Below, piece by piece: positions 2,987 through 5,740 of a stretch of 5,740 nt of DNA. The stretch is from contig JALUVB010000279.1 in the NCBI GenBank assembly GCA_027021085.1, positions 1 through 5,740 on the forward strand. Direction: 5' to 3'. The stretch is from a bacterium. GTDB taxonomy: Bacteria > CAIJMQ01 > JAADFP01. Within the stretch, counting starts at the first letter, position 1; each line of letters opens with the position of its first letter. Position numbers and translations under genes: made by a program. Below the pieces are notes generated by a model. The model was not told the origin of the DNA, ran no database searches, and saw only the letters and a list, made by a program, of their open reading frames with translations.

Positions 2987-3865
2987 TTATTGTTTACCTA
3001 CTGTAACATAGGGTCTAATATCCCGGAGCGTTTTATGCCCTACTCCCTTCACTTTGAGTAAATCATCTACGGTTTTATAGGGACGTCCTGCAATAATTCT
3101 CCTCGCAAGTACGGGGCCAATGCCCTTGATAGATTGCAGCTCTTCTGCAGTGGCAGTATTTACATTGATTAATTCTTCCGGGGAGACGGTTTTCCCCTCG
3201 ATGCGCTTTTGTATTTCCTGCAATTCCTTCTCTTCACTGCGCTGTTTAGCCCGCAATTCAGCAATTCTCTCAGGATTGCTCTCCGACCAGATGCCTATGC
3301 GTTTCAACATTGCTGAGACTTCCATGTCTCTAAGTCTCTTTATCATTTCATCGCGTGGTATGCCGTCAGGAGTTTTTCTGCCTATACCGCGCGTGCGGGC
3401 TAAGCCTTCTTTAACCAGCAAACCGGCCAGGTCATCTCCTTCTGAGGTGATAATAAACGCATACACCCGCTTCTTTGCCGACCTCCCTCCTGCATTTGCA
3501 AAAGCTGTATAAACAGTAAAAGGTCTGGCAAGTTTACTGGCAACAAAATTTTTTGCCTTGTTGCCAAAATAAGTTATACGTGCCACATCGGCCAGGCCAA
3601 AATAGCGTGCCTGTTCTTTTACCCGCCATGCATCACTCTCGGTATCCGCGGAAGTTTCAGGACAATCAATAAAATAAAGCCTCACATATTGGGTTCTTCC
3701 CCCCATTTCCACAAAGAAGCTATCTCCGTCATTTGCCGGATTATTTAACAATCTTGCCCCGGGAAATTTCTGCAAGTCAGCAGCCCGGGAAAAAGCAGTG
3801 CCTGCAAGTATCAATACCGTGGTAAGGAGTAAAGATGTAATAAGTAACCTAACCGGGCTATTCAT
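2987..3865 (-). CDS. Exported thermonuclease-like protein with C-terminal ComEA-type helix-hairpin-helix domain
   Basis: A 292-residue protein. Residues 1-28 form a signal peptide: R6 then a hydrophobic core to about residue 24, with likely cleavage after FSRA. Residues about 36-195 are a staphylococcal-nuclease fold: DGD at 46-48, R62 and D67/E70 in VRLYFIDCPET, and R133 in KKRVYAF, matching the metal ligands and arginines of the family, so catalysis is plausible. Residues 195-225 are a charged helical linker. Residues 233-287 (INVNTATAEELQSIKGIG to VKGVGHKTLRDIRPYV) carry two helix-hairpin-helix motifs as in the DNA-uptake protein ComEA, which bind DNA non-specifically. It probably cleaves DNA outside the cytoplasm, for scavenging or uptake (inference). 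ATG 3865 has only a weak AGAAAG ribosome site, but no internal Met offers an alternative that keeps the signal peptide. It is transcribed alone from its own promoter. Confidence 0.85.
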   Translation of the reverse strand: MNSPVRLLITSLLLTTVLILAGTAFSRAADLQKFPGARLLNNPANDGDSFFVEMGGRTQYVRLYFIDCPETSADTESDAWRVKEQARYFGLADVARITYFGNKAKNFVASKLARPFTVYTAFANAGGRSAKKRVYAFIITSEGDDLAGLLVKEGLARTRGIGRKTPDGIPRDEMIKRLRDMEVSAMLKRIGIWSESNPERIAELRAKQRSEEKELQEIQKRIEGKTVSPEELINVNTATAEELQSIKGIGPVLARRIIAGRPYKTVDDLLKVKGVGHKTLRDIRPYVTVGKQ

Positions 3866-3964: not shown

Positions 3965-4013
3965 CCTCCTTTCTTCTCCCGGGTTTAACCTCTATAGTTT
4001 TCCAAAAATTTTA

Positions 4014-4022
4014 TGGTATAAT
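4014..4022 (+). promoter_or_regulatory. Extended -10 promoter of the trp leader-trpE transcript
   Basis: TGGTATAAT carries a consensus -10 hexamer (4017-4022) with the TG of an extended -10 two bases upstream. No good -35 box is seen at the usual distance, which extended -10 promoters tolerate. The predicted start near 4028-4030 is almost at the leader-peptide ATG (4031), so the leader message would be leaderless or nearly so. Confidence 0.6.
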
Positions 4023-4030
4023 TAGTGGGT

Positions 4031-4069
4031 ATGGTTTTTAGTATATACAGGTGGTGGCCTGCCCCTTAG
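4031..4069 (+). CDS. trpL: trp leader peptide (tandem Trp codons), MVFSIYRWWPAP
   Basis: A 12-codon frame, ATG at 4031 to TAG at 4067-4069, with two adjacent TGG codons at 4052-4057. Its role is not the peptide but the position of the ribosome: scarcity of charged tRNA-Trp stalls it at the TGG pair. The Trp codons end exactly where the first RNA hairpin arm begins (4058), and the stop codon lies in that hairpin's loop. This is the same geometry as the enterobacterial trp leader, whose peptide also carries tandem Trp. It sits directly upstream of trpE. There is no clear ribosome site (only GTGGG at 4025-4029), consistent with a near-leaderless start; an in-frame GTG at 4025 is an alternative start. 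The peptide is far too short for routine gene calling. Confidence 0.85.
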   Translation: MVFSIYRWWPAP

Positions 4070-4116
4070 TCGTTATGGGGTAGGTCTCCAGAAATCAGGA
4101 CCGTGAGAGCCTCTCC
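4058..4116 (+). promoter_or_regulatory. Trp attenuator: pause hairpin (1:2) and competing antiterminator (2:3)
   Basis: Segment 1 (4058-4065, CCTGCCCC) pairs with segment 2 (4077-4084, GGGGTAGG) in eight continuous pairs around an 11-base loop that holds the leader stop codon. Segment 2 can instead pair with segment 3: 4078-4088 against 4105-4116, ten pairs with one mismatch (4081/4113) and one bulge (G4109). Segment 3 is also the 5' arm of the terminator, so 2:3 and 3:4 exclude each other. A ribosome stalled on the Trp codons would cover segment 1 and free segment 2 to form the antiterminator; a ribosome reaching the TAG would cover segment 2 and allow termination. Pairings are read from the sequence; the mechanism is the known one for trp leaders. 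Confidence 0.82.
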
Positions 4117-4169
4117 ATAGCGGCTCCCGCGGTGTATGCCGTGGGGTAGAGATGCCTCGCGGTTTTTTT
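4101..4169 (+). terminator. Attenuator terminator (3:4 hairpin plus T7)
   Basis: The 5' arm CCGTGAGaGC (4101-4110) pairs with GCCTCGCGG (4154-4162) in nine pairs with one bulged A. CTCT (4111-4114) continues with AGAG (4148-4151). An inner hairpin joins 4125-4132 to 4139-4146 with a six-base loop. Seven T (4163-4169) follow immediately. The structure ends 22 bases before the trpE start codon, so termination here would silence trpE. Confidence 0.85.
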
Positions 4170-4191
4170 ATTTTAGCTTAGGAGCATTAAA

Positions 4192-5646
4192 ATGGGGAAA
4201 CTGGGAAAAGTAGCAAGCGAGGGAAACCTCGTTCCTTATTACCACGAATTTCTGGCTGATACTTTAACTCCCGTGGGAGGATACCTCAAGGTATGCGGTA
4301 AATCTCCCTCCTTCCTCCTGGAAAGTGCAGAAGGAGGAGAGAAATGGGGAAGGTATAGTTTTATCGGGGTTTCACCCCTTTACCAGATTACTTACCGGGA
4401 GAAGGTTTTGACCATCGAGGGGAAAAATGGCTACCGGGAAGTAAAAACCTCATCAGATCCACTGGTGGAGTTGAGGGAATTCATGGGCAAGCTCAAATTT
4501 ACCAGGAGTGATGACCTGCCGCGTTTCCAGGGAGGGCTGGTAGGATACTTTAGCTACGATATGGTGCGCTGCTGGGAGAAGCTGCCGGAGATTGCCTCCC
4601 GGGATATCCCTTTCCCGGAAGCAATGTTTATCATCCCGGAGTCTCTTATAATATTTGACCATGCTACGCATAAGGTAAAAGTGCTTACCTTTATTGACCT
4701 GCGGGAGACGGATTTGCAGGAAGGGCAGAAGAAGGCAGAAGAACGCACAGAAGAAATTATGAGCACTCTTTTAGAGAAGGAAGTTCCTGTCTCCCCTGAT
4801 ATCTCCCTTTCAGGGTTGGAATCCAATTTTGCCCGGAGGCGTTTTGAAGATGCGGTGCGAAAGGCAAAGAAATATGTATACCAGGGGGATATAATCCAGA
4901 CTGTTATCTCCCAGAGATGGGAAGGGGAATTCGCAGGCAGTCCCTTTGCTATTTACCGGGCTTTACGAAGTATAAATCCTTCTCCCTACATGTTCTACCT
5001 GGACTTTGGCCAGGTTAAGCTGCTGGGGGCCTCTCCCGAGGTACTGGTAAGGATGGAGAATAATCTTATCGAGGTCCGGCCTATTGCAGGCACCCGCAAG
5101 CGGGGTAAAAATGAGGAAAAGGATAAGGAGTTAGAGAAAGAGCTTCTTTCTGATGAGAAAGAGAAGGCAGAGCATATCATGCTGGTGGACCTGGCCAGGA
5201 ACGATGTGGGAAGAGTGGCTGAGGGGGGTAGTGTTAAGGTTACCGAACTTATGGGCATAGAAAGGTACTCGCATGTAATGCATATAGTTTCCCATGTGGT
5301 GGGAAAGCTGGAGAAAGGGAAAGATGGCTTTGATGTTTTAAGGGCTGCTTTCCCAGCCGGCACAGTGAGCGGTGCTCCCAAGGTAAGGGCTATGGAAATC
5401 ATAGAAGAGCTGGAACCTTCCCGCCGGGGTCCTTATGCGGGAGCAGTGGGCTACTTTGATTTTGCCGGAAATCTTGACTTCTGTATAACCATAAGGAGCA
5501 TCATGGTCTATCAGAATCGTTTGTTCGTGCAGACAGGTGCCGGTATAGTAGCGGATTCTGTGCCTGAGAAGGAATACGAGGAGACGGTGAACAAAGCCCG
5601 GGCACTCCTGGCCGCTATTGACTGGTCTAAAAATGGCTTGAAGTAA
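4192..5646 (+). CDS. trpE: Anthranilate synthase component I
   Basis: A 484-residue cytoplasmic enzyme, normal length for the family. It converts chorismate to anthranilate, the first committed step of tryptophan synthesis, using ammonia from the TrpG glutaminase subunit. The N-terminal region carries LLES (residues 42-45) and NPSPYMFY is at 262-269; both belong to the tryptophan-binding feedback site, so the enzyme is likely Trp-inhibited. The chorismate-binding domain (about 220-475) shows GASPE (279-283), RPIAGTRKRG (296-305), H328 in AEHIMLVDLARNDVG, PAGTVSGAPK (388-397) and, near the end, QTGAGIVADSVPEKEYEET. These favour TrpE over the PabB and isochorismate-synthase relatives, and the Trp-codon leader upstream supports it. 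ATG 4192 follows AGGAG by seven bases. Expression is controlled by the attenuator upstream. No glutaminase domain is fused to it, and no trpG is seen in the 94 bases that follow. Confidence 0.96.
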   Translation: MGKLGKVASEGNLVPYYHEFLADTLTPVGGYLKVCGKSPSFLLESAEGGEKWGRYSFIGVSPLYQITYREKVLTIEGKNGYREVKTSSDPLVELREFMGKLKFTRSDDLPRFQGGLVGYFSYDMVRCWEKLPEIASRDIPFPEAMFIIPESLIIFDHATHKVKVLTFIDLRETDLQEGQKKAEERTEEIMSTLLEKEVPVSPDISLSGLESNFARRRFEDAVRKAKKYVYQGDIIQTVISQRWEGEFAGSPFAIYRALRSINPSPYMFYLDFGQVKLLGASPEVLVRMENNLIEVRPIAGTRKRGKNEEKDKELEKELLSDEKEKAEHIMLVDLARNDVGRVAEGGSVKVTELMGIERYSHVMHIVSHVVGKLEKGKDGFDVLRAAFPAGTVSGAPKVRAMEIIEELEPSRRGPYAGAVGYFDFAGNLDFCITIRSIMVYQNRLFVQTGAGIVADSVPEKEYEETVNKARALLAAIDWSKNGLK

Positions 5647-5661
5647 GCAGAAGAGGGAGAA

Positions 5662-5703
5662 GGGTAAATAGTGAACAGTAAACGGTAAGCAGTGAATAGA
5701 GAG
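5662..5703 (+). repeat. Degenerate 7-bp tandem repeat
   Basis: Six consecutive heptamers can be laid out: gggtaaa, tagtgaa, cagtaaa, cggtaag, cagtgaa, tagagag, with a consensus near nRGTRAA. The first five fit well; the last is decayed. It begins 16 bases after the trpE stop. The whole tail from 5647 to 5740 is purine-rich and I see no gene, terminator hairpin or trpG start in it. Confidence 0.6.
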
Positions 5704-5740
5704 AGTAGTGAGGGGAGAGATAGGAAACCGGTGGGGAGAA

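Follow-up and report, generated by a model that had tools for sequence, protein, structure and literature searches.

The region just upstream of trpE in the stretch of DNA analysed here (the window, 5,740 nt, which is the whole of contig C279) raises the question of how this gene is controlled, and in particular whether it is preceded by a ribosome-mediated tryptophan attenuator and how such an attenuator would be wired. The window comes from the draft genome G000 (1.93 Mb; completeness 93.9%, contamination 3.9%), and comparisons were made within its phylum, represented by seven genomes (64-96% complete), and its order, represented by three; G001 belongs to the same genus and G002 to another genus of the same family. 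The earlier, sequence-only reading had remarked that nothing else in the window pointed to an enteric organism, which agrees with this placement and with the scans against Rfam, in which neither the window nor eight related loci gave a relevant match. The identity of the regulated gene is clear. The ORF at 4192-5646 (forward strand, as all features of the leader below) encodes the 484 aa component I of anthranilate synthase, with 566 bits against the NCBIfam model TIGR00564 'trpE_most' (cut-off 518) and the Pfam domains Anth_synt_I_N (PF04715) and Chorismate_bind (PF00425), and a Shine-Dalgarno sequence (AGGAG, 4180-4184) precedes its ATG at 4192. In G001 and G002 trpG follows trpE, and in G001 a trpD-like gene comes next; unlike these, the contig studied here ends before trpG, after a purine-rich, weakly repetitive tail (5647-5740). 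A second trpE-like gene of the same genome (L004) was discarded as trpE, its neighbours being a pabC-like gene and miaA, and is most likely pabB. Elsewhere in the window, divergent from trpE, the minus strand at 2987-3865 encodes a predicted secreted protein with Staphylococcal-nuclease and ComEA-like helix-hairpin-helix domains. Near the contig start there is a winged-helix regulator gene (124-396) whose 3' end (tattctcaaattcttgagaacattggaataaggaag; 361-402) is nearly duplicated at 41-90, just upstream of the same gene, as if the near-repeat were the end of a tandem paralog.

The leader proper begins with a short ORF of 12 codons (4031-4069) that would be translated into MVFSIYRWWPAP and ends at a TAG stop codon (4067-4069), with two tandem Trp codons (TGG TGG, 4052-4057) as the presumed control codons, just as the sequence-only reading had it. 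Homologous ORFs were found in two other leaders described below, L098 (peptide MFFSICRWWPAP, then a stop codon, with two TGG) and that of G002 (ATGGTTAAATTAGGTTATTGGTGGTGGCCTACCCCATAG, that is MVKLGYWWWPTP and a stop codon, with three TGG), so that a short ORF with tandem Trp codons, its translation predicted, stands before a trp gene in all three. The peptides have a core in common (WWPAP or WWWPTP), and the Trp codons are kept across genera while the other codons vary. The promoter that had been claimed for the window could be recognised in part. An extended -10 element (TGG-TATAAT, TGGTATAAT) is present at 4014-4022 and is identical in L098, where the block resembling the window starts at window position 3992; there is no -35 consensus upstream of the window leader, and a promoter scan returned no sigma-70 site at 9/12 and no full sigma-70 site. 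The promoter of the G002 leader reads TTGACA-17 nt-TATTTT-7 nt-ATG. In both the window and L098 the end of TATAAT is 8 nt from the leader ATG, and the transcript is predicted to start at about 4028-4031, leaving a 5' UTR of probably 0-3 nt before the leader peptide. The mRNA of the leader would then probably be nearly leaderless and, since at the usual promoter spacing the RNA would start 0-3 nt before the ATG, the peptide may well be translated without a Shine-Dalgarno site. Such a start is unusual with respect to the textbook cases but not new, because the leader transcript of Sinorhizobium meliloti starts at the trpL ATG (PMC7298713) and that of Corynebacterium glutamicum ilvBNC a single nucleotide ahead of the start codon of its leader (PMC11857589).

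Downstream of the Trp codons the RNA is best read, from the computed folds, as a series of six segments that would pair as 1:2, 3:4 and 5:6 when tryptophan is plentiful and as 2:3 and 4:5 once a ribosome has stalled. Hairpin 1:2 (4056-4086, 4056-4065 with 4077-4086; -18.3 kcal/mol) carries the stop codon of the peptide in its loop, as had been proposed, and 8 core pairs are kept in all three homologs. The competing helix 2:3 (4068-4125; -26.5 kcal/mol) is present as well; its core (4070-4080 with 4113-4123) consists of 11 uninterrupted pairs, about 21 when the bulged extension is counted, instead of the ten pairs of the earlier description. The middle hairpin 3:4 (4100-4133) is formed by 4100-4105 with 4128-4133 and 4107-4111 with 4122-4126 (-18.7 kcal/mol); it is not followed by a U tract and would act as an anti-antiterminator. 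Next comes the hairpin 4:5 (4126-4145, 4126-4133 with 4138-4145; -13.4 kcal/mol), equivalent to CCCACGG:CCGUGGG in G002, which is the candidate antiterminator. Finally, the intrinsic terminator 5:6 (4138-4169), found by the terminator scan and by folding, pairs 4138-4148 with 4153-4163 (-17.6 kcal/mol) and is followed by the T7 tract at 4163-4169, which ends 22 nt upstream of trpE; this confirms the terminator proposed before trpE. The whole leader stretch folds with a z-score of -3.8 against dinucleotide shuffles (0 of 200 shuffles as good). In the favoured fold the hairpin at 4126-4145 excludes, and is excluded by, both 3:4 (4100-4133) and the terminator (4138-4163). We read it as this antiterminator in preference to the extra inner hairpin of 3:4 proposed earlier.

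To model a ribosome stalled on a Trp codon in its A site, the RNA that it covers was masked as far as 4064 or 4067. Under this mask 2:3 and 4:5 in the window leader each have a probability of at least 0.9 as long as segment 6 is incomplete. If the ribosome is placed at the stop codon or left out, 3:4 and 5:6 prevail after segment 6 has been transcribed. Terminator and antiterminator are thus mutually exclusive and chosen by the position of the ribosome, at least in the computed folds, and their pairing is conserved. The same two sets of helices were obtained for G002, where completion of segment 6 returns the terminator to its place at equilibrium even in the stalled state. Because the complete terminator is the more stable structure there, antitermination in G002 would have to be kinetic, a matter of time and not of stability.

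Homologs of this leader were sought with covariance models. When 304 kb of related loci were searched with the model built from the window leader alone, the leader of G002 scored 62 bits (E 2.6e-14); it precedes trpE by 154 nt, and downstream it has the same hairpins, with a T8 tract. In 386 genomes, a model built on two sequences recovered both source leaders and a single convincing new one, also before trpE, in G212:C43 (L098). A fourth, weak match in G092 lay inside the pnp coding sequence and was rejected as a leader; no copy of the leader core was found in viral contigs. L098 is a contig end binned with another lineage (G212) and contains the leader and the initial 112 nt of trpE. The contig of G001 starts within trpE, which accounts for the absence of the leader from its own bin, and L098 and the end of G001:C5 have an identical overlap of 91 nt. 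From this overlap, G212:C43 is probably the misbinned missing end of the contig of G001, a sister species that differs from the window by 11% across trpE. The L098 leader differs from that of the window at 8 of 139 positions, and between 4052 and 4133 (the Trp codons and segments 1-4) only position 4093 is changed, which lies in the linker that joins segment 2 to segment 3. G002 is more distant, with a TrpE that is 66% identical to that of the window. Since the genes upstream of leader and trpE differ among all three copies, the conserved block belongs to trpE and travels with it.

The conservation of the pairings was examined on structure-based alignments, which lean towards the modelled structure and were adopted because MAFFT put the terminator strands out of register. 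With the three leaders aligned to the terminated state, 94.8% of the cells are paired and 4 pairs are changed on both sides, against 40-50% and at most one both-sided change when the structure is slid as a control. Two of the compensatory pairs fall in 3:4, and two were also recorded for 5:6. For the stalled state 98.2% of the cells are paired (45-52% in the slid control); a single cell, at the end of 4:5, is unpaired, and the five varying pairs are all one-sided. The 11 core pairs of 2:3, for instance, are all kept through three one-sided changes. These figures come from three homologs, two of them very similar, and the helices of the stalled state have no double changes, which can hardly be expected of so small a set, given that each of segments 2 to 5 takes part in two helices. 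The topology of any one of these GC-rich sequences is in itself weak evidence, since a loosely defined relay is given by 12% of the spacer shuffles of the window and 6% of those of G002 (a simpler score, the sequestration of segment 5, is reached by 7% and 27% of the shuffles and is too loose to do better). The argument for the relay is its recurrence in two genera and not the topology of a single sequence.

Taking these observations together, we regard the region as probably a cis-acting, ribosome-mediated tryptophan attenuator of the trpE operon that works as a six-segment relay. Ribosome-mediated attenuation is the best explanation because leaders homologous to this one, which agree in peptide core, pairings and terminator, precede trpE amid differing flanking genes. 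With charged tRNA-Trp in good supply, the ribosome would pass both Trp codons and reach the stop codon; either 1:2 would form or the ribosome would cover segment 2, segment 3 would pair with 4, and segment 5 would be left free for 6, so that transcription would end at the T7 tract before trpE. Under a shortage of Trp-tRNA, the ribosome would halt on TGG TGG and cover segment 1. Segment 2 would then take segment 3, releasing segment 4 to take segment 5, the terminator would not be made in time and trpE would be transcribed. In short, the position of the ribosome would set 1:2 or 2:3, this in turn 3:4 or 4:5, and this the formation of 5:6 or its absence.

The main rival to this relay is a classical attenuator of four segments, in which the terminator would be the outer stem 4101-4107/4156-4162, the hairpin at 4126-4145 a harmless insert in its loop, and 2:3 would block the terminator directly. 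In the window leader the energies speak in its favour, since the nested fold (-36.8 kcal/mol) is just 2 kcal/mol less stable than the best (-38.8 kcal/mol), and four trpE leaders from unrelated lineages (see below) do fold as plain four-segment switches. This near-equivalence is restricted to the window, however. When 4:5 is forced in G002 the cost is 10 kcal/mol and the outer stem is then absent, the favoured folds of the three homologs do not have four segments, and two features speak against the nested arrangement: the compact terminator 5:6, in which segment 3 is not used, is conserved and has compensatory changes, and 3:4 is kept as a separate hairpin. We therefore consider the four-segment attenuator unlikely as an account of this leader.

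Two further explanations dispense with the stalling ribosome altogether. The leader might be nothing but a constitutive terminator preceded by a chance small ORF, and the fact that 6-12% of GC-rich shuffles give relay-like topologies is in line with this; the fold z-score of -3.8 is not, and neither is the persistence of the ORF, the Trp codons, the position of the stop codon and the alternative pairings in a genus in which TrpE is 66% identical, which makes an absence of regulation very improbable. Still harder to defend, and in our view close to negligible, is another sensor of the trpE RNA, such as a T-box for tRNA-Trp, a TRAP-type site or a Trp riboswitch, to which the short ORF would be incidental. 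A terminator before trpE would be expected from all such systems, but no Rfam family, T-box included, matches the window leader at E up to 1, the (G/U)AG triplets are irregularly spaced and form no TRAP array, and the peptide and its Trp codons are conserved across genera while other codons change.

The six-segment relay could also be a product of our folding procedure, and control leaders are informative in this respect. With the same script and footprint rule the hisL leader of Escherichia coli gave A:B, C:D and E:F unstalled and B:C and D:E stalled, as in the published model of the his leader, AB/CD/EF versus BC/DE (PMC10989985), while E. coli trpL gave 1:2 and 3:4 versus 2:3 only, that is, four segments. 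The idea that the layout follows the enterobacterial paradigm is not supported in that form, as the window leader and its homologs come out with six segments like hisL; what stands of the attenuator originally proposed upstream of trpE are the Trp codons and pairings kept by the homologs, and what lacks support is the enterobacterial wiring. Seven further trpE loci, each with a leader ORF rich in Trp codons, were treated in the same way; four (L009, L057, L070 and L082, from Deltaproteobacteria and Calditrichaeota MAGs) were plain four-segment switches, without an Rfam match at those of them that were scanned. Since these four loci and E. coli trpL give four segments, the relay is not simply the output of the script for any trp leader.

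Two of the seven, L023 and L051, showed a chain of alternative pairings, and the last, L008, gave an ambiguous fold. In L023 (a Desulfobacteria MAG, trpE at 4001) the leader (...SAWSWWWSSGRVCLPPER) and two tandem terminators, with a possible 4:5 between them, occupy the region about 120-325 nt upstream of trpE. In a single order, four genomes (L051/L115, L116, L117 and L118; L051 is titled Spirochaetales) have a Trp leader ORF before trpE. In L116, L117 and L118 this is followed by two tandem terminator hairpins, each with a U tract, and in L051 the U tract of the first hairpin is broken. In the stalled state computed for L115, L117 and L118, pairing occurs between the first hairpin (3' strand) and the last terminator (5' strand), which amounts to a relay. 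The modelled arrangements in the L051 group and in L023 suggest that a relay could arise from tandem terminators. It is possible, though we offer it as no more than a speculation, that relay Trp attenuators arose repeatedly under attenuation-only control of trp, some of them from tandem terminators whose freed first 3' strand disarms the second, and that in the lineage studied here the first terminator lost its U tract and was turned into a pure relay hairpin by which basal read-through is held down, as has been proposed for his.

This last proposal bears on the repressor. Elf and Ehrenberg argued that the extra hairpin of his meets the need for low basal read-through in an operon without a repressor, trp doing without the hairpin because TrpR serves that purpose (PMC1183508). 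Among the seven genomes of the phylum no protein scored above the cut-off for the TrpR family, in a search that gave matches above the cut-off in 2 of 14 control genomes. The best match here, a weak one in G000 (17.8 bits, cut-off 27), was rejected because its ORF, judged by its sequence, reads as a LacI-type regulator. Given that the genomes are drafts, 64-96% complete, the absence of TrpR is likely rather than proven, and a relay leader in a lineage with no detected TrpR fits the argument in a way that is suggestive only. A short His leader ORF was found at none of the twelve His-codon loci checked in G000-G002. A trp leader with his wiring and no TrpR found would be a natural exchange of parts with which the argument of Elf and Ehrenberg can be tested.

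How, then, does the leader compare with the systems already described? With E. coli trpL it shares the tandem Trp codons before trpE, at a similar codon position, the pause-type hairpin 1:2, the 2:3 competitor and the terminator with a U tract. In E. coli, however, segment 3 is common to antiterminator and terminator, while here 3:4 and 4:5 intervene, TrpR is present there and none was found in the phylum of G000, and the Rfam Trp_leader model has no match in the window (cmscan, E up to 1). Neither is there any sign of membership in the T-box or TRAP systems, by Rfam match or by (G/U)AG spacing. The trpLE(G) leader of S. meliloti has the same target, trpE, an mRNA that starts at the trpL ATG and attenuation without a repressor (PMC7298713), a likeness in design and not, as far as shown, in sequence, in which the 5' end is, on our side, predicted from the -10 spacing alone. 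The ilvBNC leader of C. glutamicum has anti-antiterminator, antiterminator and terminator hairpins in common with ours (PMC11857589); it reads branched-chain amino-acid codons and has three hairpins with a shared trinucleotide, whereas here there are five alternative helices. The trp attenuators of Corynebacterium and Streptomyces also combine GC-rich terminators with leader peptides that have two or three UGG codons (PMC1262725) but have been described as classical attenuators, with no relay hairpin (PMC1262725). In the open-licence literature we found no paper on trp relays.

The closest parallel is with hisL of E. coli and Salmonella, which has the same six segments, AB/CD/EF when terminated and BC/DE in read-through (PMC10989985, PMC1183508), and the same middle hairpin without a U tract between the pause hairpin and the terminator; under one script the topology of the window leader and that of E. 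coli hisL are the same. By gene family the two are different, as the leader studied here has Trp and not His codons (two control codons instead of seven, in a peptide of 12 codons instead of 16), precedes trpE and not hisG, and has no match to the Rfam His_leader. With this family, undetected by Rfam models, the range of leader-peptide attenuation comes to include a small uncultured phylum. Placed by covariance model outside both the Trp and the His leader families of Rfam, the window leader has the wiring of a his leader together with the sensor and the target of a trp leader.
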